A stretch of DNA of 64,000 nucleotides, from the NCBI RefSeq assembly GCF_026914265.1, contig NC_069136.1, forward strand, positions 33,193,368 through 33,257,367, given 5' to 3'. Positions 4,790-47,847 of the stretch are shown here, piece after piece (the first letter of the stretch is position 1; each line of letters starts with the position of its first letter). The notes below the pieces were generated by a model. That model searched no databases. It was given only the letters and a program-made list of their open reading frames with translations, and was not told the DNA's origin. Origin of the DNA: Mya arenaria (lineage: Eukaryota; Mollusca; Bivalvia; Myida; Myidae). A program made the translations under genes and the position numbers.

Positions 4790-6035
4790 TGTCAATAGTT
4801 TAACATTTGTGCAAGTTAACAGTTCCTTTTATTTAATTGTATTTGGCCTATTGAAATAATAGGTTGGTGGTATTTTTTTCTGACATTTGAAAAGGATGGG
4901 CAAACTAGTAAGTAGTGGTATTCATCACCAACAAGTCGCATTATGCCACATTGTTAAGAACGCAGAAAAGCATATCCGTCTACGTTCGGGCCTAAGTTTG
5001 CATTTTAGATCAATTTCCATACGAATAGTGTTCATATTCGAAATTGCAGTCTAAGCATATTCATATCCATGCGGGCCTCAGTACAAATGTAGAGTTAGTT
5101 TAAGTAGGTGTATTGTTCATGGTAGAATAAGCATGTCTATCCTGGACACTTACTGTTGTTATATAAACTGTTGACACTCACCGTTGTAAGTAAATCTTGA
5201 ACGGACCTTTGGCGGACTAGTGTCATCATTATGTACGGAGCATCGTACAAGGGGGAGGTATTATATTTTGTTATCATACTTTTATTGGTTTATAATTCAA
5301 TGTTGACATAATTTGTGTAAAAAGGGTTTATATCAAGCTTTAAATATATATATATATATATATCTTAAATTTAGGCTTTTAATCGGTATCATTATTTGAT
5401 CTCATAGGTAGAGTTCGATATCTTATTTATTACTTTTTGTACTCGACTGTCTTTCGTCTGCGCTCAGATTATACTTTGGCATTCAAATTTTATTTAAGAT
5501 GTGATGTACTCAATAGTATTTTTAGCTATTGATACCTGTATTAAGGTTACAAATGTGGTAGAATTCTAAATCTTCTATTTAAGGACACATCACACAGTTT
5601 TTTTAAGCCGACATATTTTTTTTTCATTTATCGCAGCAATGTACTGCACAGTAAGACAAGTAAATACAAGTTATAATATAATGCTCATATTTTAGATATG
5701 CACATTTTAAAAATGATCACTATTGGCAAGAATAATAGCAAGAAAATGATTGTTCTCAAAAGTATTAAAATTCACTTTATTATATTAGAACACATTTATA
5801 CAATTACACAATTTTGTGTCCAGGCGCATTTTCAGTTTGTCTTCATCAATACATAAGCAAATTAAAGGGATTTTTTAAACATTGTAAAATCTCTAAATAA
5901 TGGAATATTCAAGGTGCAAAATATGTAACATAATTAAACAGTTTTAGTTATATTTTTTCAGCTGACAGTTTTATTTTATTTATTTGTTCTAATTTTGTAT
6001 TTATATCCTAGCTATAGCCGGTTGCTATTGTGAAA
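4790..6035. other. AT-rich non-coding stretch
   Basis: Nothing recognised apart from a short (TA)n run near 5,345. Confidence 0.45.
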
Positions 6036-30189: not shown

Positions 30190-33100
30190 GGACCAATGTT
30201 CAGATTGTTGCCTTTAAAACGTGTTTAACCAACGTTAGATTGTTTCTTTCAAAGCGAATTGAACCAATGTTCAGATTCTTTGTCTTGTTGACATGCTGGA
30301 TATTATTCAAATTGTGTGCCTTTAAAACTTGTTGGATAAATGTTTTCATTGTTACCTCTAAAATGTGTTGGAACATTTCTCAGATTGTGTGCCTTTAAAA
30401 TCTGTTAGACTAACGTAAGATTATGTGCCGTTAAAACTTGTTGGATTAATGTTGAGTTTGTGAACATTTTTGATTATGTCAAATTGATAATGTCATACAT
30501 TTATATTATATGGGAACACTGTTAAGATTGTGTACCTTTAAAAAGTGTTTAAGCCAATGTTGTTCTAATTGTGTGCATGTAAAAGTAAAGGTGTTGGACC
30601 AATATTTAGACGGTGTGTATGTGTTATTCCAATGTTCAAATTGTGTGAGTTTTAAACCTGATTGACCAATATTTAGAGTGTGTTTCTTTAAAACATGTTG
30701 GTCCAACGCTCAGATGCGTGAATGTAAAACCTTTTCAAATAGTATTCTTAAAGTGTAAATTTAAAACGTGTTGCACCAATGTTCTGTGTGTGCCTTTTAA
30801 AGAGGTTGGACCAATGTTCAGAGTATGTGGCTTTAAAATGTGTTGAACCAATGCTCGTAGTGTGTGCCTTAAAACGTGTCTAACCAATGAAGGGAGTGTC
30901 TGACTAAAGTGTTTGACAACTGTTCAATGTGTGTGCCTTAAATGCCTGTTGGACCAATGTTTAAATTGCTTGTCTTTAAAACGTGTTGGACAAATGTTCA
31001 TAGTATTTGCCTTTAATTCGTGCTGGTCCAATGTTCAGATTGTTTGCCTTTATAACGTGTTCGACCAATGTTCACTGAGTTTGCCTTTATAACTTGTTGG
31101 AGAAATGTTCAGTTTGTTTGCCTTTAAACGTGCTGGTCCAATTTTCTAAATGTCTACCTTTTGAACGTGTTGGTTTAATTTTCAGACGATGTGTCTTAAA
31201 ACGTTTTGGATCAATGTTCAGAGTGTTTGCCTTTAAAACGTGTCGGCCCAATGTTCAGAGTGTTTGCCTTAAAAACGTGTCGGTCCAATGTTCAGAGTGT
31301 TTGCCTTTATAACGTGTCGGCCCAATGTTCAGAGTGTTTGCCTTTAAAACGTGTTGATCCAATATTCATAGTGTTTGCCTTTAAAACGTGTTGGACAATG
31401 TTCAGAGTGTTTGCCTTTAAAACGTGTTGGACCAATGTTCAGAGTGTTTGCCTTTAAAACGTGTTGGACCAATGTTCAGAGTGTTTGCCATTATAACGTG
31501 TTGGTCCAATGTTCAGAGTGTTTGCCTTAAAAACGTGTCGGCCCAATGTTCAGAGTGTTTGCCTTTAAAACGTGTCGGTCCAATGTTCAGAGTGTTTGCC
31601 TTTATAACGTGTCGGTCCAATGTTCAGAGTGTTTGCCTTTATAACGTGCCGGCCCAATGTTCAGAGTGTTTGCCTTTATAACGTGTCGACCCAATGTTCA
31701 GAGTGTTTGCCTTTAAAACGTGTCGGCCCAATGTTCAGAGTGTTTGCCTTTATAACGTGCCGGCCCAATACTCAGAGTGTTTGCCATTATAACGTGCCGG
31801 TCTGTTCAGAGTGTTTGCCTTTAAAACGTGTTGGCCCAATGTTCAGAGTGTTTGCCTTTATAACGTGCCGGCCCAATGTTCAGAGATTGCCTTTAAAACG
31901 TGTCGACCCAATGTTCAGAGTGTTTGCCTTTAAAACGTGTCGGCCCAATGTTCAGAGTGTTTGCCTTTATAACGTGCCGGCCCAATGTTCAGAGTGTTTG
32001 CCATTATAACGTGCCGGTCCAATGTTCAGAGTGTTTGCCTTTAAAACGTGTCGGCCCAATGTTCAGAGTGTTTGCCTTTATAACGTGTTGGTCCAATGTT
32101 CAGAGTGTTTGCCTTTAAAACGTGTTGGTCCAATGTTCAGAGTGTTTGCCATTATAACGTGCCGGCCCAATGTTCAGAGTGTTTGCCTTTAAAACGTGTC
32201 GACCCAATGTTCAGAGTGTTTGCCTTTAAAACGTGTCGGCCCAATGTTCAGAGTGTTTGCCTTTATAACTTGCCGGCCCAATGTTCATAGTGTTTGCCTA
32301 TAAAACGTGTCGACCCAATGTTCAGAGTGTTTGCCTTTAAAACGTGTCGACCCAATGTTCAGAGTGTTTGCCTTTATAACATGCCGGCCCAATGTTCAGA
32401 GTGTTTGCCTTTAAAACGTGTCGACCCAATGTTCAGAGTGTTTGCCTTTAAAACGTGTCGGCCCAATGTTCAGAGTGTTTGCCTTTAAAACGTGTCGACC
32501 CAATGTTCAGAGTGTTTGCCTTTAAAACGTGCCGGCCCAATGTTCAGAGTGTTTGCCATTATAACGTGCCGGCCCAATGTTCAGAGTGTTTGCCATTATA
32601 ACGTGCCGGCCCAATGTTCAGAGTGTTTGCCATTATAACGTACCGGCCCAATGTTCAGAGTGTTTGCCTTTATAACGTACCGGCCCAATGTTCAGAGTGT
32701 TTGCCTTTATAACGTACCGGCCCAATGTTCAGAGTGTTTGCCTTTATAACGTACCGGCCCAATGTTCAGAGTGTTTGCCTTTAAAACGTGTCGGCCCAAT
32801 GTTCAGAGTGTTTGCCTTTAAAACGTGTCGGCCCAATGTTCAGAGTGTTTGCCTTTATAACGTGCCGGCCCAATGTTCAGAGTGTTTGCCATTATAACGT
32901 ACCGGCCCAATGTTCAGAGTGTTTGCCTTTATAACGTGCCGGCCCAATGTTCAGAGTGTTTGCCATTATAACGTGCCGGCCCAATGTTCAGAGTGTTTGC
33001 CATTATAACGTGCCGGCCCAATGTTCAGAGTGTTTGCCATTATAACGTGCCGGCCCAATGTTCAGAGTGTTTGCCATTATAACGTGTTGGCCCAATGTTC

Positions 33101-34056
33101 AGAGATTGCCTTTAAAACGTGTCGACCCAATGTTCAGAGTGTTTGCCTTTATAACGTGTTGGTCCAATGTTCAGAGTGTTTGCCTTTATAACGTGTCGAC
33201 CCAATGTTCAGAGTGTTTGCCTTTATAACGTGTTGGTCCAATGTTCAGAGTGTTTGCCTTTATAACGTGTTGGATCAATGTTCAGAGTTTTTGCCTTTAA
33301 AACGTGTCGACCCAATGTTCAGAGTGATTGCCTTTAAAACGTGTTGGTCCAATGTTCAGAGTTTTTGCCTTTAAAACGTGTTGGTCAAATGTTCAGAGTG
33401 TTTGCCTTTAAAACGTGTCGACCCAATGTTCAGAGTGATTGCCTTTAAAACGTGTTGGTCAAATGTTCAGAGTGTTTGCCTTTAAAACGTGTCGACCCAA
33501 TGTTCAGAGTGTTTGCCTTTATAACGTGTTGGTCCAATGTTCATAGTGTTTGCCTTTATAACGTGTTGGTCCAATGTTCAGAGTTTTTGCCTTTAAAACG
33601 TGCTGGCCCAATGTTCAGAATGTTTGCCATTATAACGTGCCTGCCCAATGTTCAGAGTGTTTGCCATTATAACGTGTTGGCCCAATGTTCAGAGATTGCC
33701 TTTAAAACGTGTCGACCCAATGTTCAGAGTGTTTGCCTTTATAACGTGTTGGTCCAATGTTCAGAGTTTTTGCCTTTAAAACGTGTCGACCCAATGTTCA
33801 GAGTGATTGCCTTTAAAACGTGTCGACCCAATGTTCAGAGTTTTTGCCTTTAAAACGTGTCGACCCAATGTTCAGAATGATTGCCTTTAAAACGTGTCGA
33901 CCCAATGTTCAGAGTGTTTGCCTTTATAACGTGTTGGTCCAATGTTCAGAGTTTTTGCCTTTAAAACGTGTCGACCCAATGTTCAGAGTGTTTGCCTTTA
34001 TAACGTGTCGACCCAATGTTCATAGTGTTTGCCTTTATAACGTGTTGGTCCAATGT
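30190..34056. repeat. 37-bp minisatellite, about 100 copies
   Basis: The unit contains CCTTTAAAACGTGTCGG and CCCAATGTTCAGAGTG. From 31,200 to 34,056 (about 77 copies) units are nearly identical, with variant classes (TTTAAAACGTGTCGACC, TTTATAACGTGCCGGCC, CCATTATAACGTG). From 30,190 to 31,200 they decay steadily to the left. A short-unit variant (CAGAGATTGCC) recurs at about 31,880, 33,105 and 33,695. The 37-bp period is not a multiple of three, so long open frames cycle through three readings; they are not genes. The 330 bases between this array and the MGC gene hold nothing else recognised. Confidence 0.97.
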
Positions 34057-34967: not shown

Positions 34968-36215
34968 ACAGACGGACGGATAGGTAGGCCCACAGCAAGC
35001 CAGACAGACGTACGTTCGGATAAGTAGGCCCACAGCAAGCCAGACGGGCGGATAGGTAGGCACACAGCAAACCAGACAGACGGATAGGTAGGCCCACAGC
35101 AAGCCAGACAGACGGATAGGTAGGCCCACAGCAAGCCAGACGGACGGATAGGTAGGCCCACAGCAAGCCAGACGGACGGATAGGTAGGCCCACAGCAAGC
35201 CAGACGGACGGATAGGTAGGCCCACAGCAAGCCAGACAGACGGATATGTAGGCCCACAGCAAGCCAGACGGACGGATAGGTAGGCCAAAAGCCAGTCAGA
35301 CGGACTGATAGGTAGGCCCACAGCAAGCCAGACGGACGGATAGGTAGGCCCTCAGCAAGTCAGACGGACTGATAGGTAGGCCCACAGCAAGCCAGACAGA
35401 CGTACGTTCGGATAGGTAGGCCCACAGCAAGCCAGAAAGACGTACGTTCGGATAGGTAGGCCCACAGCAAGCCAGACGGACGGATAGGTAGGCCCACAAC
35501 AAGTCAGACGGACGGATAGGTAGGCCCACAGCAAGCCAGACAGACGTACGTTCGGATAGGTAGGCCCACAGCAGGCCAGACAGACGGACGGACGGATAGG
35601 TAGGCCCACAGCAAGCCAGACTGACGTACGTTCGGATAGGTAGGCCCACAGCAAGCCAGACGGACGGATAGGTAGGCCCACATCAAGTCAGACGGACGGA
35701 TAGGTAGGCCCACAGCAAGCCAGACAGACATACGTTCGGATAGGTAGGCCCACAGCAAGCCAGACGGACGGATAGGTAGGCCCACAGCAAGCCAGACGGA
35801 CGGATAGGTAGGCCTACAGCAAGCCAGACGGACGGATAGGTAGGCCCACATCAAGTCAGACGGACGGATATGTAGGCCCACAGCAAGCCAGACGGACGGA
35901 TAGGTAGGCACACAGCAAGCCAGACGGACGGATAGGTAGGCACACAGCAAGCCAGACAGACGTACTGGCGGATAGGTAGACACGCAGCAAGCCAGACAGA
36001 CGTACTGGCGGATAGGTAGACACGAAGAAAGTCAGACAGACGGAGAGGTAAACAGGCAGCAGTTCAGACAGACGTACAGACGGAAAGGTAGGCACGAAGC
36101 AAGCCAGACAGACGTACGGACGGAAAGGTAGACACGCAGCAAGCCATATTGGCGAATGGATAGATAGGCACGCAAAAAGCCAGACAGACGTACAGACGGA
36201 GGGGTATGCGCACAG
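34968..36215. repeat. 32-bp minisatellite, about 39 copies
   Basis: The unit contains GGATAGGTAGGCCCACAGC and AAGCCAGACGGAC. Some units carry a four-base-longer GTACGTTCGGATAGG form. It decays towards the right (35,950-36,215), about 120 bases before the start of the oxidoreductase. The minus frames are open for up to about 170 codons because the unit lacks stops; the predicted peptides are pure repeat, so I reject them as proteins. Confidence 0.97.
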
Positions 36216-36333: not shown

Positions 36334-39300
36334 ATGAGGTGTTTATTACAGACACTGGGTCGACGCACATACGTTACACAAGGTTCAAACCAAAGAAAAC
36401 GCTACAACGTTGGCCTGTTTGGTTGTGGGCGGATTGCAGGTAGGAACCTTTTTTAGATTCTCTGTTTTCCGAAAAAAGTCAAGGTTTTGTGATAGCGGTT
36501 GTGTGTCGTAGTGGACACTGAAAACTTTAACCTCGGTCATAACTAAAAAACCATTCAAGATAGTCCCAGGAAATTGTTACATAGATTCCCAGAGACTATA
36601 CTTACATGTATAATAAGTCTCATATCTCTGGTTTTCAATAAATGTTGGGTTATCCCTCTTACTCGATTTGACAGCAAAAACAGACGAACGTTGGCGTTGG
36701 CTCCGTGGCGCTATTGTTTATAATATCCGACTTTATATACTGCATCGAAAGAAGTAAAGTTACCCCGAACAATTACACTGCCCTTGTGGCCTAATACACC
36801 ATTAAACATTTGCAATCATGTATTTAATTTCAGGCGTCCATCTTAAAAACATTCTGAGCAACCGTCGTCTGGACTTGAAATGGATTGTGGAAAACGATAT
36901 GAGGCGAATACAGGAAGTGAAGGACGAGTTCTACCTCGATGGAAACACTCCTTTCTTCCCCTCCTCGGAGAGAGACAGACTTTTGTCGGATAAAAGGTAA
37001 AATGACTTATCTATGGTAAAATTAAATTCTTTCGGGTACAGGAAAATGAAGGATGAGTTCTACCTCGAAGGAAACACTCTTCTTTCTCCTCCACGGAGAG
37101 GGACAGACGTTTGTAGGATAAAAGGTTGGATGATCTATCGATGGTAAAATGATTATCTTTCGGGTACAGGAAATTGAAAGACGAGTTCTACCTCGAAGGA
37201 AACACTCTTTTTTTCTCATCCACGGAGAGGGACAGACGTTTGTAGGATAAAAGGTAGGATGATCTATATAGGTATGACGTCACCATTGCGTCATATGTGC
37301 TTCCATTGTGTGGATAATTCTCAATAAAAAAAGAAGTTTTTTATGACTGATAGACATGTTTTCACATGCTCAATACACTGTAAATCAAAAATATAATTAT
37401 TCCTGAAACTTTTATACCTTGAGTATCTATTATTGCTTGATTTATCATTTAGAATAGAGATTTAAGCATAAACTGCTGCCCTATAGTTGAAAGGTCATTT
37501 TGGAAGAACTGTCATGGCGGACTGTGCAATTTTTAGAGTTTGTTTTTCAAGTGGAGAGATTTTTCTTAGGAATAACTTGACCCCCCCCCCCCTTTTATTG
37601 GCTTAAAAGATAATTTAAAGCTTGTACTTTAAGAATATATATGTTTATCATAGTCTGCATTCGCTCGAAATGCCTTTAAATGTTGTCTAAAAATAATCAT
37701 TTCACTTTGAATTATAGAGGAAATGACAATGGTGGTGTGTAACCTATATGGTAAAATGATTATGTTTCGGGTATAGGAAAATCAAGAACGAGTTCTACCT
37801 CGAAAAAACACTTCCTTTTTCTCGTTCATGGAGATGGACAAATAATGTCGGATAAAATGTAGAATGATCTATCATTTGTTATATTATTGCCGACTTAAAT
37901 CATCAATTTGTATGTCCATAAAGGAAGTAATGGACAGGCTTTTGAAGGATTAAATGTCAAATGAGTTATCTGTGGTTGGGATATTTCTGCCTTTAAATTT
38001 GTTTAATCTATTGGCGGGTACATGGCGTGATGGACGAGTTCTACCTATGTCGGAACTTCCCATCTTTCCGACATGATAGGTAAAGGGACTTTTTACCGAA
38101 CTTGATAAAAAATAAATATACTATTAAAGGGGAAAATGGAAGACCCTATAAAACATTTGATACTGGACGATATTAAAGTAGAAACTCGAGGTTCTAGTGT
38201 TTAGAACAAGTACGTTTTGAATTAAAACCTTATATTTCAATTGAGTTCGTATATTCCATACAGCCTCGACGCCGTTGTGGTCGTGTCACCCACCAGCACA
38301 CATACAGAGTACATCGTCCAGAGCCTCAAACATGGTAAACTTCATGCTTTGGAAAAGTATTCATATTAACGACAGTTATACCAATAGTTCATCCAACCAC
38401 GCAACTTGCTGTTTACTTCGTATATCATACCAACCTCATGGCATTTTATGTTTATTTCCTACGAGCCTCAGAGCATATACTGTTTAATTCGTACGAGCCT
38501 CAGGGCATATACTGTTTATTTCGTGCGAGTGTCTGGGCATATACTGTTTAATTCGTACAAGCATCAATGCATATACTGTTTAATTCGGACGAGCATCAGG
38601 GCATATACTGTTTAATTCGTGCGAGTGTCTGGGCATATACTGTTTAATTCGTAGAGCATCAGGGCATATACTGTTTAATTTGTACGAGCATCAGGGCATG
38701 TACTGTTTATTTCGTGCGAGTGTCTGGGCATATACTGTTTAATTCGTATGAGCATCAGGGCATATACTGTTTATTTCGTATGAGCATCAAGGCCTATACT
38801 GATTAATTCGTACGAGCATCAGGGCGTATACTGTTTATTTCGTACAAGCATCAAGGCATATACTGTTTAATTCGTACGAGCATTAGGGCATATACTGTTT
38901 ATTTCGTATGAGCATCAAGGCATATACTGTATAATTCGTACGAGCATCAGGGCATATACTGATTATTTCGTACGAGCATCAGGGCATATACTGTTTATTT
39001 CGTACGAGCATCAGGGCATATACTGTTTATTTCGTACGAGCATCAGGGCATATACTGTTTATTTCGTATGAGCATCAAGGCATAATTATACTCTTTAATT
39101 CGTACGAGCATCAGGGCATATACTGATTATTTCGTACGAGCATCAGGGCATAAACTGTTTATTTCGTACGAGCATCAGGACATATACTGTTTATTTCGTA
39201 CAAGCATCAGGGCATATACTGTTTATTTCGTACGAGCATCAGTGCATATACTATTTATTTCGTACAAGCATCAGGGCATATACTGTTTATTTCGTATGAG

Positions 39301-42300
39301 CATTAAGGCATAATTATACTGTTTAATTCGTACGAGCATCAGGGCATATACTGATTATTTCGTACGAGTGTCTGGGAATATACTGTATACCTACCGCATG
39401 ATATACCTTTTTACTTAATACAAACCGCATCGGATACGGTTTATTCGTTCAACCCAAAGGACATACTGTCAATTTCGTACATACTGCAGGACATACTGTC
39501 TATTTCGTAAAAATCGCAGAGCATACTTCTGTTTATTCGTACATACTATAGGACATACTGTCTATTTCGTACAATCCGCATAGCATATTTTTTATATATT
39601 CATTGCGTACCACATGGCTCTATTTTCTAGATTAAGTCTATACAGCTTACTTAATTAAACAATTTCTGTATATGTTAAACTAACCAGTTATATCATATGC
39701 ATCAGAACGCAAATAGGAAAGCACTTTTATTTCGAGGCAAGGACGTGTTTACGGAGAAGCCAGCGGGCGAGTCTGTGTCCGACATTCGGCTGTGTTACGA
39801 GACGGCCGAAAATACCGGAAGGACTTTCCTCACAGGATTTACTAGGTGATTTTGGTGTTTTTATTCAAATCAACATTTTAGTAAGAAGTAATTACACGGC
39901 CTCTAAACGCCAGCTGCACCACTTTACAGTGGTGCAAAGAAAAAGAGCTGTCGACACTTCCGTGGTGGAGCTGTGCCCTATGTTTACATGAACAAACGTG
40001 CGTATGATTTATATTTTATTTGATTGATAATTTTATTTAACCTACATATTTCGAAAATCGGAGAATGTGGTACCGTGTAAGAACACTTCTACTGTAGGCT
40101 GGTTACTATTTCGTTTCAAAATTGTGCAAACTGTGGTGCCAGGAGCTTTTCTTCTGAATCGGATTTGTGCATATTTTGAGATCTGATTGCATAGCAATAT
40201 GGTGTTTTCTTTGCACCACCGTAAAGTGCTGGAGCTGGCGTTTAGAGGCCGTGAATTAAGAAAGCGCTTGTATGCTTAGGAATATACGGTACTCCCTCAT
40301 GAACATTCTGACAATTTATAGTCCGAGATGGCGCATTTCGAGCATATTTTGAATACTAGTACTTTTTTATCTCCGATATTGAGATTAAAAGGACACTTCC
40401 ACGATTTTAGGGGTGAGGGTGGGGGTGTCGGGCGGGGGGAGCCACAACCTCAATCCGCTTATGATTTCAACACGACAAATAGTAGTAACCATGTCGTATG
40501 AAACAAGTACGGTATTAAAGTGTTCTATCATTTGTCATATGCTCAGACGAGCAATGTCATCTCTTCTTTTTCCATGAGCTTCTGGGAACATCATTTATGA
40601 AAAATCACATGAAGAAGAAACACCTTATTCATTCAATTCAACAAGCATTAGGTGACAAGGCTAACGTAAAACAAACGGAAAACACTACACATTAGATGGT
40701 TTCGCTGTATTGGTCTGGTACCGGTTACTAAAGTTGTACCCAGTCTGCAGAACCCGTCCTAGCCCGGGGCGGGGGAGGGGGTAGTTCCGTCAAGAACCCT
40801 ACACACCTCTTTGCTCTTTAGGATATATTTTCAGCAGTAAAACTGCACCTTACTGTTAAGATATTCCTCGGAAAAATCTTGCCTTTCGAACTCCTGATGG
40901 CATCCACGACCTCCAGGGTCACAGTGTTCGAATGCCATAGCATCTAGAGTTGACTTAAAATGCTATATGCTAATATTATATTCACACACTCTCAAACGAT
41001 ATATTTTTAACATTTTGCAGACGTTTTGACGATTCGTATCGAGACGTGAAGTCTGCTATCGACAATGGAACCTTGGGGAAATTACAGGTCATCAAAACTA
41101 CGACCAGAGACTCGCCCAAACCGTCGTACGAGTTTCTTAAGTCCATCGGTCAAAGTGACGTAACGTCATTTCACTTCAGACTGGGCCACTCGCTTTAACG
41201 CTGTGCTTTATCGTTATTTTTTACGTACGACCGGAGAGTTTACGAGACGTTTCTGAAACGCCTTTATGATTATCGTTAAGTTGGTCGTTATTACGATCGT
41301 AAATTTACGATAATGGCAGATCGTAAAATCTATCTGAAACGCACCCCTGGTTTGCTCTTTCCAAGAAAAAAAAAGTTGTTGCAAATGGTATATCTGTGAG
41401 AGTGCAGCTTTAAAGATGCAGAGTAAAGGTGGTTGCATTTTGTTTATGTAGATGCATTATCATGTTGACTTTAATGATTAAAAAGCATGATGTGTGTACA
41501 AATAAAATCATATTAGCGATATTTTGGCGTTTTTTGAACGCGAGAGTTTGTGGCCACGTACCCATTATATTTTTATATAGGCTAATATTTTGTTTATCCA
41601 TACACGAATCATATGGGTTTTTATATATCCTTAATAACGTATACACATCCTGGATGACGTAATGCACACAAATGCAATACGTACAGGGTCGCGATTACGT
41701 ACTGTTTTTCAAATACCCTGCAACAATTCTGGTATTTCCGATCGTAATATTATTATACACCTATGACCATTAAACTGTGAACTAAGACGTTAAAAACATG
41801 TTGTCGATACTGATTATTTGGAGAAGTAAACTATCTGAACTGATATATTACCGAAAGATATCCTCATGTCAACACTTAATGACAATAAAGGTGTGTATCT
41901 CATCATGATGAGGACGATGAATGTTATATAAGCAGTTGTCGTGGCCGAGTGGTTAAGGCGATGGACTAGAAATCCATTGGGATCTTCCCGCGCAGGTTCG
42001 AATCCTGCCGACAACGCATATATTTTTTTCCATTTAACTTCAAATAAATCACCTGTTCCAAATTTAAGGTATTTGGCACAGGCGGTATGGCACTGGCAGA
42101 GAACCCCCGGGAGATTTCTACAGTTATAGACGGGGAAAGTGGTGGTTCCACTCGTCGACTCTTTAACTCCTTCCCACAGAGGTTTGAGGCACCATTTGCT
42201 GCGGAGCTGGACCATTTCATTAACTGCATGGATGGTAAGAGTTTATGCCGCAGGGTCAGACCAGATTTACGTTAGAGGAACGCGCTGGGGTTGAATGAAT

Positions 42301-44089
42301 GGATGGTAAGTGTTTATAATGCAGGATCAGACCAGATTTACGTTAGAGGAACTCGCTAGGGGTTGACTGAATGGATGGTCAGAGTTTATGCCGCAGGGTC
42401 AGACCAGATTTACGTTACAGGAACGCGCTCGGGGTTGACTGAATGGATGGTAAGAGTTTATAATGCAGGGTGATACCAGATTTTACGTTTGAGGAACGCG
42501 CTGGAGGTTGACTGAATGGATGGCAAGATTTTATAATGCAGGGTGATAACAGATTTTACGTTTGAGGAACGCGCTGGAGGTTGACTGAATGGATGGTTAG
42601 ATTTTATAATGCAGGGTGATACCAGATTTTACGTTAGAGGAACGCGCTGGAGGTTGACTGAATGGATGGTTAGATTTTATAATGCAGGGTGATAACAGAT
42701 TTTACGTTTGAGGAACGCGCTGGAGGTTGACTGAATGGATGGTTAGATTTTATAATGCAGGGTGATAACAGATTTTACGTTAGAGGAACGCGCTGGAGGT
42801 TGACTGAATGGATGGTTAGATTTTATAATGCAGGGTGATAACAGATTTTACGTTAGAGGAACGCGCTGGGGTGGAATGAATGGATGATAAGAGTTTATAA
42901 TGCAGGGTGATAACAGATTTTATGTTAGAGGAACGCGCTGGAGGTTGACTGAATGGATGGCAAGATTTTATAATGCAGGGTGATAACAGATTTTACGTTT
43001 GAGGAACGCGCTGGAGGTTGACTGAATGGATGGTTAGATTTTATAATGCAGGGTGATAACAGATTTTACGTTTGAGGAACGCGCTGGAGGTTGACTGAAT
43101 GGATGGTTAGATTTTATAATGCAGGGTGATAACAGATTTTACGTTAGAGGAACGCGCTGGGGTGGAATGAATGGATGGTAAGAGTTTATAATGCAGGGTG
43201 ATAACAGATTTTATGTTAGAGGAACGCGCTGGAGGTTGACTGAATGGATGGCGAGATTTTATAATGCAGGGTGATAACAGATTTTACGTTTGAGGAACGC
43301 GCTGGAGGTTGACTGAATGGATGGTTAGATTTTATAATGCAGGGTGATAACAGATTTTACGTTAGAGGAACGCGCTGGGGTGGAATGAATGGATGGTAAG
43401 AGTTTATAATGCAGGGTGATAACAGATTTTACTTTAGAGGAACGCGCTGGGGTGGAATGAATGGATGGTAAGAGTTTATAATGCAGGGTCAGACCAAATT
43501 TTACGTTAGAGGAACGCGCTGGAGGTTGTCTGAATGGATGGTAAGAGTATATAATGCAGGGTCAGACCAGATTTTACGTTAGAAGAACGCGCTGGAGGTT
43601 GTCTGAATGGATGGTAAGAGTATATAATGCAGGGTCAGACCAGATTTTACGTTAGAAGAACGCGCTGGAGGTTGTCTGAATGGATGGTAAGAGTTTATAA
43701 TTCATGAAGTGCCCACTTATAAAGGAACCGACAAATATAAATTCTTAATATTATATTTGAGTTTAAGATATAACATGTTTTTTATTTGGCTAATTTAGTT
43801 TTAAAAATGTTGTTCATGTGTTTTTTCTACCACAATAAATGCAAAGTTCACTTGGATGATCTTTGGGTTGACGGGCCAATTATCCGTAAGTTTTACACAA
43901 CAAAGGTAGTGTCCGATGATTATTACAATGGCAATGGTGTGTCCATGACTTACGACCCAAAGAATCAAACGTATTTCGGTTCCAGGAACTACTACTCCAC
44001 TTGTTACGAAGGAAGAAAGTCTGTGTGTTGCTGACATTATCGAAAAGGGTGTACAGTCGTACAGAGAAAAACGTGTCGTATTTTTCTGA
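36334..44089 (+). CDS. Gfo/Idh/MocA oxidoreductase (YrbE / inositol 2-dehydrogenase-like), middle exon missing
   Basis: Predicted NAD(P)-dependent sugar or inositol dehydrogenase. Exons: 36,334-36,439, 36,834-36,996, 38,264-38,334, 39,737-39,845, 41,021-41,148, 42,069-42,234 and 43,986-44,089. The first five join in phase and give the Rossmann start (YNVGLFGCGRIAGVH), LDAVVVVSPTSTHTEYI, the family's catalytic-lysine block (GKDVFTEKPAGES) and GFTRRFDDSYRDV. The last two join in phase and give VFGTGGMALAENP, AELDHFINCMDG and the C-terminus IIEKGVQSYREKR. Between 41,148 and 42,069 the phase does not fit. The block of about 65-70 residues carrying the family's HD-x-x-x-HD-type active-site motif is absent. 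The model has about 282 residues against about 340-350 expected. It is either a decaying gene or a missing exon in this copy or assembly. The start ATG at 36,334 is uncertain because an acceptor (TTTATTACAG) lies just after it. Confidence 0.88.
36908..37290 (+). repeat. Tandem copies of exon 2 of the oxidoreductase (pseudo-exons)
   Basis: The second half of exon 2 plus its donor is repeated twice more with an exact 128-base period (anchors 36,908, 37,036 and 37,164). Each extra copy keeps GAGTTCTACCTCGA and GGATAAAAGGT. Each is preceded by a possible acceptor, TTTCGGGTACAG. The copies are one base shorter inside the coding part, so they could not be spliced in without shifting frame. Worn relics lie at about 37,745-37,870 and 38,015-38,085. 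Confidence 0.9.
38400..39600 (+). repeat. 32-bp minisatellite in intron 3 of the oxidoreductase
   Basis: About 30 units with TTCGTACGAGCATCAGGGC and ATATACTGTTTA; decayed units continue to about 39,600. The oldest units read CGAGCCTCAGGGCATA, which resembles the exon 3 end and donor (AGAGCCTCAAACATGGTAA) 60-130 bases upstream. So it may be seeded from the exon border. Open frames inside are repeat artefacts. Confidence 0.9.
39895..40253. mobile_element. MITE with ~48-bp TIRs and AATTA duplication
   Basis: The left end starts CACGGCCTCTAAACGCCAGC and the right end is its complement. The arms match over about 48 bases with a few differences, and both sides are flanked by AATTA (39,890-39,894 and 40,254-40,258). 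It is non-autonomous at 359 bases, inserted in intron 4 of the oxidoreductase. Superfamily not assigned. Confidence 0.85.
40409..40440 (+). other. G-rich tract, potential G-quadruplex
   Basis: Several runs of three or more G separated by short spacers (GGGG, GGG, GGGGG, GGG, GGGGGG). A second G-rich tract lies at about 40,768-40,783. Both are in intron 4 of the oxidoreductase; no function is shown. The rest of 40,259-41,020 holds nothing recognised. Confidence 0.5.
41345..41413 (-). mobile_element. TTAA-MITE family F2, end fragment
   Basis: Matches the right end of 61,921-62,281: TTGCTCTTTCCA, then ATGGTATATCTGTGAGAGTG and CAGCTTTAA, ending at TTAA. Confidence 0.6.
41935..42015 (+). tRNA. 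tRNA-Ser (anticodon AGA)
   Basis: Full cloverleaf with no intron. The acceptor stem GTTGTCG pairs with CGACAAC. The A box is TGGCCGAGTGG. The anticodon stem TGGA/TCCA encloses AGA at 41,968-41,970. A long variable arm (GGGA-TCT-TCCC) is typical of serine tRNAs. The T arm is GCAGG-TTCGAAT-CCTGC. A run of seven T after position 42,020 can stop RNA polymerase III. It reads UCU codons. It lies on the coding strand inside the oxidoreductase intron, 53 bases before the next exon. Confidence 0.96.
42225..43705 (+). repeat. ~72-bp minisatellite seeded at an exon-intron border
   Basis: About 20 units containing TGAATGGATGGTAAGAG, TTTATAATGCAGGG and GAGGAACGCGCTGG. The first unit overlaps the last ten bases of the exon ending at 42,234 (TGCATGGATG|GTAAGAG), so each unit carries a copy of that exon tip and its donor. 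Many units also hold an acceptor-like TATAATGCAG. Donor variants are GTAAG, GTTAG and GCAAG. It fills the last intron of the oxidoreductase. Confidence 0.95.
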
Positions 44090-44883: not shown

Positions 44884-47847
44884 TGTAGGACCTTATGCGG
44901 CATTTATTGATATGTCCAAATGTTTTGACAGTGTATATAGAAATGGTCTGTGGTACAAAATTTATAAACAACTTGGTTTACGGGGCAACATGTTTAGAAT
45001 TATTAAGAACATGTATGAAAATGTACGAGTACAGGTACGGCACTGCAATAGTTACTCCGATTTCTTTGATATAGCTACCGGCTTGAAGTAGGGAGAAATA
45101 TGCTCACCTTTGTTATGGGCCATGTTTATCGAAGATCTAGAATTATTTTTACAATCTAATCCAGACAGTGGAATCACGTTGAAACAAATGACTTTGATAT
45201 TATTCCTTTATGCCGACGACATGGTAATATTAGCGGAAACGGCCGAAGATCTACAACGAAGTTTGAACAGTCTATCCGATTATTGCAAGCGTTGGGGTTT
45301 GCAAGTCAATGTCGATAAAAGTAAAATCATGGTTTTCAGAAAACGAGGAAGGCTGAAATGTGGCGAAAGTTGGATCTATAACGATAAAGTAGTAGAAATA
45401 GTTGACCAATTCACGTACCAAGGAACAATATTTAGTAGTAACGGCCAATTCAACAATAACTAGCAAATGCGAGCGGAAAAAGCTTTAAAAGCTATGTATA
45501 CTTTAAGTGGAAATTTAAAGGGCTTTGATTTGAGCCCAAAGACACAGTGAGACCTTTTTGACGCGTGTATTGGTTCGATATTAAGTTATTAGTGTGAAAT
45601 ATGGGGATATTCCAATGCTAAAGAATTGGAAAGAGTACATCTGAAGTTTTGCAAGCGTATGCTAGGTGTAAAACTTTCAACAAATAATGTAGGTGTTTAT
45701 GTTGAATTAGGACGCTACCCAATACAAATTAAAAGACAGACTCGAATGGTGAAATATTGGTTTAAAGTCATCAATACTAACAACTGCGTAATTAAGGCAC
45801 TTTATGACGAATTAGTTGCTGACAACAATATTAGACATTTAGATAACTGGTCGTCAAAGATAAAGGACCTACTTTACAGACACGGTTTCGGGAATCTATG
45901 GGAAAATCCATCCACTATAAAACCTGACCGTTTTGCTCAATTGTTTAAGCAGCGTCTTATTGATCACTTCAGCCAAGAATGGCACACTTCCTTCCGAAAT
46001 AATAACGTACTTACTTTATATAAATATCTAAAACCAAAGATTGAATATGAACAGTATCTTGACGTTATGAACTCAAAGCGTTATCGACATGTGTTTAGTC
46101 AACTGCGACTATCATCACATAAACTCAGAATTGAGACTGGTCGTTACGGGAGAAACCGAGAAGAGAGACATGATCGAATATGTGTATTTTGTGATAGCAG
46201 GGACATTGAAGATGAGTTTCACTTCATGTTCAAGTGTGATATATATAAAAATATAAGAAAAAGATACATAAGTCGTTATTCCTGGCATAATCCAAGTATG
46301 TTTAAGCTTATAGGACTGTTACAAAGTAAAAATAAGAATGTATTAAACAACCTTTCTTGTTATATAAATAGTGCGATTAAAATTAGAAATAACTTAAACA
46401 ATACCTTAAGGAAAATACGGTTTCTGTTTTATGTTTATTTATACATATGCTACAAAAAATATAGTAACATAATAATAAATAGAGGATATTTGTTTATTTA
46501 AGTGTAAGATCGTATTTTATTTCACGAGTGTCATAGAAAAACATAATTTCACGAGTGGCGAAGCCACGAGTGAAAATGTAGTTTTTTATGATCACGATCT
46601 TACACTGAAATAAACAATTTTCTGTTTCTTTTATGCTTATTTTCGGAGTTTTATTTGTTTTTTTTTATCTATTTCTGAATTACCCCTTTTTTGAAAAGGG
46701 TGGGCTTTACGCCGCTTCCTGTGGGGCGCCCCTCTTGCATAATTATAGCTGTCAACTTTTCTACTTTCGGTTTGCGAAGAAATAGTTCTCTGCTATTCAT
46801 GTTTATGGCTTAATATTCGCTCGTTTTTTATTGCAAAGCTTTATGAACAGTATACAATGAAGTATTATTAGTGCATATATGTTCCAAAAAATAATGAAAA
46901 CACTTTTTATTTTAAGATGGGCATGAATTCATAACCAAATTACTACGCCGCTATTTAAAGAATGAACATTTGGAAGGTCAAATGTGTTAGCAAAACAAAT
47001 GTGGATACTCATTGGTTTTTAACCATTCTTCTTAGTTTAAGACTGCATGTACGCGTGTTTTCATAGTAAGTTAATATTCAGTCATCTTACTGTCAGAGAC
47101 CAGTCTGTTTCGCTTTAAAATGTTTGTTTTCCAGATAAAGAGTAAATGTCACGCTAGTTTGTTGACACATTTTGAGGTGTGGGTGGGGTAAAAAATATCG
47201 GATCTATCTGTAAATTGTTGTGTGAATTCTCCAGGAAGCTCATTTTACGTACTACAACGGTTAACAGTTCAAAATACATTTGAACGATGATATAAAATTT
47301 TATTTACAGTTGTTTTTGTCTGTAATTCGTTTGGTATGAAAGCAAATGTTCGAACATTCAGCTTCAAAGATCAGTAAAATGTTTGATAAACGGGATAACC
47401 GGTAATAAACGGTAAGTTGTTAATGTCCAATTATATTTTTTTATTAATTTTAAACATTTTTTGACATAATTTACTTAATTTAAGTCCATTGTTCTGTTTT
47501 GATCAAGGCAAGTTCATGTAACAACAAAGGAATTTAAAAATAGTTCTGAAAGTTGATATTTTCACTCCTTATTTTGCAGTGAAAATATCAAATTTTCACT
47601 GTTGTTATTTCACTGTTAAAACCCCATATATCATCGTAAAGCATGATAGAAATGGTTTTCTGAACTTTTTATTACTACCCTCCACATTGTTTTCTTTGTA
47701 TTATTATATGTTTTGTTTTATTTTTTGAATGTATTATTTGTATGTGTATGGGTTTGTTTTTGAGTGTATGTACATTTCTGTGATTGTTTGTATGATGAGA
47801 GACTATGAAGTCTAAATCAAAATAAACTTCTGTTCTGTTCTGTTCTT
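44884..47847 (+). mobile_element. LINE 1: 5'-truncated non-LTR retrotransposon
   Basis: One frame runs from 44,884 to about 46,490. It encodes the reverse transcriptase from the block AFIDMSKCFDSVYR through the catalytic YADD box (LYADDMVILA, near 45,210), the thumb region and a C-terminal Cys/His domain (CVFC ... DEFHFMFKC). The frame is not shifted, but has four stops: TAG at 45,089, TAG at 45,461, TGA at 45,548 and TAG at 45,590. The 5' end, with endonuclease and ORF1, is missing. The 3' end probably resumes at about 47,640 and finishes at AATAAAC plus (TTCTG)n at 47,828-47,847. Between them lie a hairpin element and about 1 kb of foreign or unassigned DNA. The clade (Jockey/CR1/I-like) is not resolvable by eye. 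Confidence 0.85.
46490..46617. mobile_element. Hairpin element inserted in the LINE 1 3' end
   Basis: The arms are about 55 bases: GTTTATTTAAGTGTAAGATC on the left matches the complement of the right end. At the centre is a near-perfect palindrome around CACGAGTGGCGAAGCCACG. The LINE reading frame ends inside the left arm. Another small hairpin (TTGATATTTTCACT with its complement) lies at 47,553-47,591. Confidence 0.75.

Follow-up and report, generated by a model that had tools for sequence, protein, structure and literature searches.

Exon ends and splice donors at the start of intronic repeat arrays in an inositol 2-dehydrogenase-like gene family of Mya arenaria

How does a tandem repeat array come to begin inside an exon, and does its recurrence within one gene call for a mechanism acting at splice borders? 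The question is raised by a 64,000-nt stretch of the Mya arenaria genome (the window; C15:33193368-33257367), in which the initial annotation saw repeat arrays in several introns of an oxidoreductase gene, each apparently grown from the exon–intron border just upstream, and suggested repeated seeding by a local process such as replication slippage or repair at transcribed splice borders. We searched a genome of 1,216,080,610 bases in 18 contigs and find that in two introns, those after exons 2 and 7, the repeat units begin within the preceding exon and include its donor, the paralogous loci H and I pointing to the border as seed in the case of exon 7, and that the case of exon 3 does not hold. 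What we see is probably accounted for by tandem duplication of the ordinary kind in a genome rich in minisatellites, the copies surviving where a functional donor remains ahead of them.

The gene copy in the window and its relatives

The exons in Table 1 are predictions, derived from translation, splice signals and comparison with paralogs rather than from RNA. When joined, they matched PF01408 (Gfo/Idh/MocA oxidoreductases) with 75.5 bits, above the curated cut-off of 24, and their top match was TIGR04380 (inositol 2-dehydrogenase; E 1.1e-48), at 165.8 bits against a cut-off of 355. Because exon 6 and the C-terminus are absent from the query and the TIGR04380 score stays below its cut-off, we name the predicted gene at 36354-42234 inositol 2-dehydrogenase-like, of the Gfo/Idh/MocA family. 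Exon 6 (..LGVHDIDMVVW.., which holds HDID) is matched in loci B, C, D, Dx and I, and weakly on C9 and C16; it has no match in the window copy (hereafter W), which falls short of a complete gene by TIGR04380. With no recognisable exon 6 and an altered exon-5 donor, the window copy is, to judge from its sequence, probably a broken gene and not functional. A tRNA-Ser (AGA) gene lies on the same strand at 41935-42017, in the interval from exon 5 to exon 7 that lacks exon 6.

Table 1. Predicted exons and repeat units of the gene in the window
Feature	Position in window	Strand	Remarks
Exon 1, coding part as recognised	36354..36439	+	Last residues ..GLFGCGRIA, then donor GTAGGA; left border provisional; from translation and family matches of joined exons
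Exon 2	36834..36996	+	Translation; paralog identity
Unit 1, 128-bp array	36909..37036	+	Exon 2's own last 88 nt, donor, 40 nt of intron; TRF and copy search
Exon-2 tail copies 2 and 3	37037..37274	+	Starts 37037 and 37165; identity to copy 1 84 and 85%; TRF and copy search
Exon-2 tail copy 4	37772..37886	+	Diverged, 75% to copy 1
Exon-2 tail copy 5	38019..38137	+	Most diverged, 66% to copy 1
Exon 3	38266..38334	+	Left border +/- few bases; translation; kept in B, C, D and E
32-bp array, 29 copies	38449..39386	+	TRF; similarity to exon-3 end not significant
Exon 4	39738..39846	+	Borders +/- few bases
Exon 5	41023..41149	+	Donor GTCAAA in window copy, GTGAGT in loci C and Dx
Exon 7	42067..42234	+	Left border inexact
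73-bp array	42223..43701	+	TRF, 20.4 copies; unit made up of 12 nt from the exon-7 end, donor GTAAGAG and 61 intronic nt

Related pieces were located at several places on C15 and also on C8, with more distant relatives on C9 and C16. Locus B (L030, L012, L013) is a very similar gene region about 217 kb from the window with the same arrays, and is the copy in which all recognised exons are present; exon 2 is 100% identical there, and 94, 90 and 90% identical in three other places. Loci F and Gg, and K and L, form further very similar pairs, which may be recent duplications or unmerged haplotypes. Beyond the arrays considered below, intron 4 contains an inverted repeat at 39895-40253 (49-nt arms, 94% complementary, 261 nt between them), perhaps a small non-autonomous DNA transposon. 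Large arrays upstream of exon 1, of 37-bp units (85 copies) and 32/40-bp units, occupy 30921-34056 and 35017-36200 and have similar counterparts in loci B and C, and a reverse transcriptase fragment (PF00078, E 7.5e-14) lies downstream of the gene at 45092-45463.

Arrays after exons 7, 2 and 3

That the exon ending at 42,234 (exon 7) gives its tip and donor to an array of about 20 copies proved correct, with a period in TRF of 73 rather than 72 bp. The first unit opens with the final 12 bases of the exon (ACTGCATGGATG) and continues into the donor, and alignment of the unit consensus to the exon-7 end scored 23, a value that no background segment out of 4505 and no shuffle out of 300 attained. 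With head-to-tail units of tens of bases, 73 bp repeated 20.4 times, the array is a minisatellite. Paralogs H (24.49 Mb) and I (34.62 Mb) each contain a single copy of the exon end with the intron sequence behind it, and after the copy in H the sequence resembles, by eye, the flank past the arrays of W and B. A donor at the exon-7 position also occurs in paralogs free of the array, namely H and, as a GT after the matching exon end, C9 and C16. Given the single-copy state in H and I, the unit is most simply a copy of a pre-existing exon–intron border, so that the border is probably the source of the 73-bp unit; alternatively, copies may have been lost in H and I. A comparison of H with W by eye revealed no clear microhomology at the first junction.

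Array length differs widely among the paralogs, with 3 unit starts in E, 10 each in F and Gg, 18 in B and 21 in W. Identity of the 73-bp units did not vary with distance (rho −0.08 in W, −0.33 in B and −0.25 in F, all P > 0.2), and neighbouring units in W were slightly more alike than all pairs (0.938 vs 0.912). At locus J (L025 8739 to L026 416), a 73-bp array stands without a recognised exon ahead of it, and a 110-bp array stops just before.

Exon 2 was described as having its second half and donor triplicated. The copying is confirmed, and the number is revised: TRF reports 128 bp × 2.8 from 36909, again a minisatellite, and a search with the first unit recovers five copies, the exon itself included. 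The same unit matches 5 places in B, 6 in C, 2 in D, 7 in Dx and 3 in E. In a tree of 26 copies, from which two short matches (in C and Dx) were left out, copies group across loci: E_2, E_3 and D_2 with B_4, W_4, C_5 and Dx_6, C_3 with Dx_3, and C_4 with Dx_4. Support is mostly moderate, 3 of the 20 inner branches carrying the program's strong mark. Since copies of different loci cluster together, the exon-2 duplication looks older than the paralogs. Moreover, copies become less similar to the exon-proximal one with growing distance from the exon (rho −0.53, P 0.034; 16 copies, not mutually independent, with B omitted as a near-duplicate of W). This gradient fits repeated addition beside the exon as well as homogenisation near it, and does not separate the two.

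The third supposed case was the 32-bp array after exon 3, said to resemble that exon's end and donor. The alignment that singled out exon 7 gives a score of 8 here, reached by 22% of the 4505 background segments. Two other versions of the 32-bp unit scored 8 (23% of background) and 9 (9%) against the exon-3 end and 10 and 12 against exon 4, and the window consensus scored 8 and 9 against exons 4 and 5. In paralogs C, D and E, where related arrays follow exon 3, the same similarity test yielded 6, 5 and 5. TRF places the start of the array 115 bp past the donor, although diverged units may start somewhat earlier. With an alignment at chance level and the resemblance lost in paralogs, exon 3 is ruled out as the seed of this array.

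Could the copies have been kept by selection because they are useful to the gene, whether as alternative exons, as decoy donors or as splicing regulators? In locus B, GTAAG is intact in all 17 later 73-bp units, and exon-2 copies are frequently flanked by AG before and GT after the exon-like part, some of them, such as the second copy of C, being open. The motif is kept, however, in only 8 of 20 later units of W (6 of 9 in F), several exon-2 copies carry stops or frame shifts, and the window gene, for the reasons given above, is itself probably not functional. Units are also alike through recent copying, so their intact donors are not independent; as regards selection against decoy donors, the donors of such mutually copied units were simply counted. 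We regard a functional role as very improbable.

We give equally little credence to the idea that the picture stems partly from assembly error or unmerged haplotypes, which the similar pairs (W/B, F/Gg and K/L), the full identity of exon 2 between W and B, and a perfect exon-5 repeat in Dx might suggest: array lengths differ inside the W/B and K/L pairs, and neither single-copy paralogs nor diverged copies can be produced in this way. The repeat in question (L035, reverse complement 4948-5211) comprises the whole of exon 5, preceded by its acceptor and followed by the first bases of its donor, as two identical units of 132 bp.

Array placement compared with chance

Duplications at exon borders are not confined to the close relatives of the window gene. 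In loci K and L (C15:44.20 and 44.28 Mb), near-identical distant relatives, an array of 74-bp units opens with an exon's terminal 8 nt (GTATTGAG), followed by the donor, and in L the next recognised exon carries the protein on (..GRIE / VDEPFHCPT..); this is a third, independent donor-spanning case. A TCP1 chaperonin exon (L049, reverse complement 242-321) contains a perfect 41-bp × 2 duplication that spans the acceptor, possibly an alternative acceptor, so that borders are hit at both sides. We rejected the 79-bp array of locus I as an exon-tip array, as it starts past the exon and its unit is like the intron of B and C by eye. At L045, a 25-bp × 2 repeat lies over the start of the match.

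Arrays are dense in this sequence, the window holding 18 in 64 kb (0.28 per kb, 14% of bases); 29 control loci held 5 in 17,476 bases. Random placement of the five arrays of the gene let at least two start inside an exon and run past its donor in 5.4% of 20,000 trials; excluding places that would break an exon raised this to 9.4% of 20,000. In both cases old, shared arrays are treated as freely placed. We then considered 43 donors that had not been chosen for their arrays: those of 20 TCP1 exons (from 61 matches), 9 P450 exon ends (among the 100 matches listed, donor side only), 6 on C9 from one gene, 5 on C16 from one of six copies at 44.8-45.6 Mb, and 3 in L, K being left out as a near-copy of L. 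This sample is small, 20 of its donors come from chaperonin genes, borders in C9, C16 and L are estimated from match ends, and the three L donors include the 74-bp array. An array spans 1 of the 43 by sequence and 2 by script, compared with 1.8 expected for exons of 130 nt; at L050 the script calls spanning since the HMM match overruns the donor, and by sequence the array begins 3 nt into the intron. The rate at other donors is hence compatible with random placement, and exon overlap commoner than chance is not seen in this small control.

Exon–intron borders near donors might even so be hot spots of array birth throughout the genome, with R-loops, or repair at transcribed splice borders, as conceivable causes. 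In keeping with this, array starts lie at most 30 nt from the control donors in 3 cases vs 0.84 expected (P 0.053), which may reflect a slight crowding; the exon-7 and K/L arrays begin 12 and 8 nt before their donors, and in locus I the 79-bp array begins 8 nt past the point where the exon-6 match stops. These counts are tiny, however (shifted windows gave 4 array starts in 181, vs 3 in 43 at donors), and an acceptor-spanning duplication turned up within just 20 TCP1 exons. Nor are donor 9-mers in repeated form clearly enriched. Repeats of CAGGTAAGT, counted on both strands, numbered 550 vs 504 for the reversed string at gaps of 30-60 nt and 356 vs 532 at 60-90 nt, and those of AAGGTGAGT 241 vs 534 at 30-60 nt. 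Such counts hold many matches per array and are weighted most by large arrays: among the places listed for C1 and C2 in the 30-60 nt comparison of CAGGTAAGT, we distinguished by eye about 8 separate spots on the donor side and about 10 in the reverse comparison. Genome-wide over-representation of the donor motif among short-period repeats was not found with these two exact 9-mers, which miss arrays whose donors differ from these motifs or have altered, the arrays of this gene among them. On balance we consider a genome-wide hot spot unlikely.

A related proposal is slightly less likely still: in this genome, new arrays would arise by preference no more than a few tens of bases from a 5′ splice site, each intron would lengthen away from its conserved exon end, and the exon would serve as a protected template for renewed seeding. 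Such reseeding is hinted at by the age gradient of the exon-2 copies; the 73-bp arrays lack one.

Since both arrays are common to paralogs, they are most simply old single seedings. Together with the loss of exon 3 from the set, the 5-9% frequency of at least two spanning arrays by chance, the control donors, the acceptor case and the 9-mer counts, this argues against repeated seeding by a local mechanism at the donors of one gene. In a genome so rich in tandem repeats, the small control comes out at about the chance rate, and no special mechanism is needed. In the ordinary tandem duplication that we favour, the left end of the duplicated segment would fall by chance within an exon and the right end in the next intron. 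The exon-proximal copy would retain the reading frame and a working donor, and later copies, lying behind it in the intron, would be spliced out and so be nearly neutral. Copies would then multiply through slippage or unequal exchange and subsequently decay, each array going back, most simply, to a single seeding in some ancestor of the gene family, with later changes of length separate in each paralog. Three observations count against this reading: three independent donor-spanning arrays (exon 2, exon 7 and K/L) in one enzyme superfamily are more than we would have guessed, two of the three start no more than 12 and 8 nt inside the exon, and array starts near the control donors exceed expectation as given above.

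Relation to known repeat and duplication systems

The locus offers a clear worked example of how an intron may lengthen from an exon border without obvious harm, the single-copy state being still visible in paralogs. If array starts truly crowd at donors genome-wide, repeat-rich molluscan genomes would provide a direct test of whether transcribed splice borders are prone to duplication. We found no earlier report of exon-border minisatellites among the literature entries listed, and PMC3039753 is not relevant to array seeding.

Three known systems invite comparison. Like intronic minisatellites in general, the arrays have units of tens of bases, a copy number that varies between paralogs and neighbours that are slightly more similar; they differ in that the first unit reaches into the exon and the units bear an exon tip and a donor. 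Tandem exon duplication is resembled by the exon-2 tail copies and the exon-5 repeat of Dx, which are coding sequence in tandem. However, the first half of the exon is absent from the exon-2 copies, many of which have decayed, and the Dx repeat alone comprises an entire exon together with its acceptor and the start of its donor.

Introns have reportedly also arisen from tandem arrays, in work by Zhuo and others of 2007. A close parallel in the literature lies in tandem genomic duplications that bear splice signals and are a source of new introns (PMC3443670, a review, within which Gao and Lynch 2009 and Hellsten 2011 are cited; PMC2891723, Drosophila; PMC4974935, potato RdRp). In those duplications, as in ours, splice signals are carried along and an exonic copy ends up inside an intron, whereas here, with no new intron position seen, an existing intron has been lengthened and its unit amplified to many copies.
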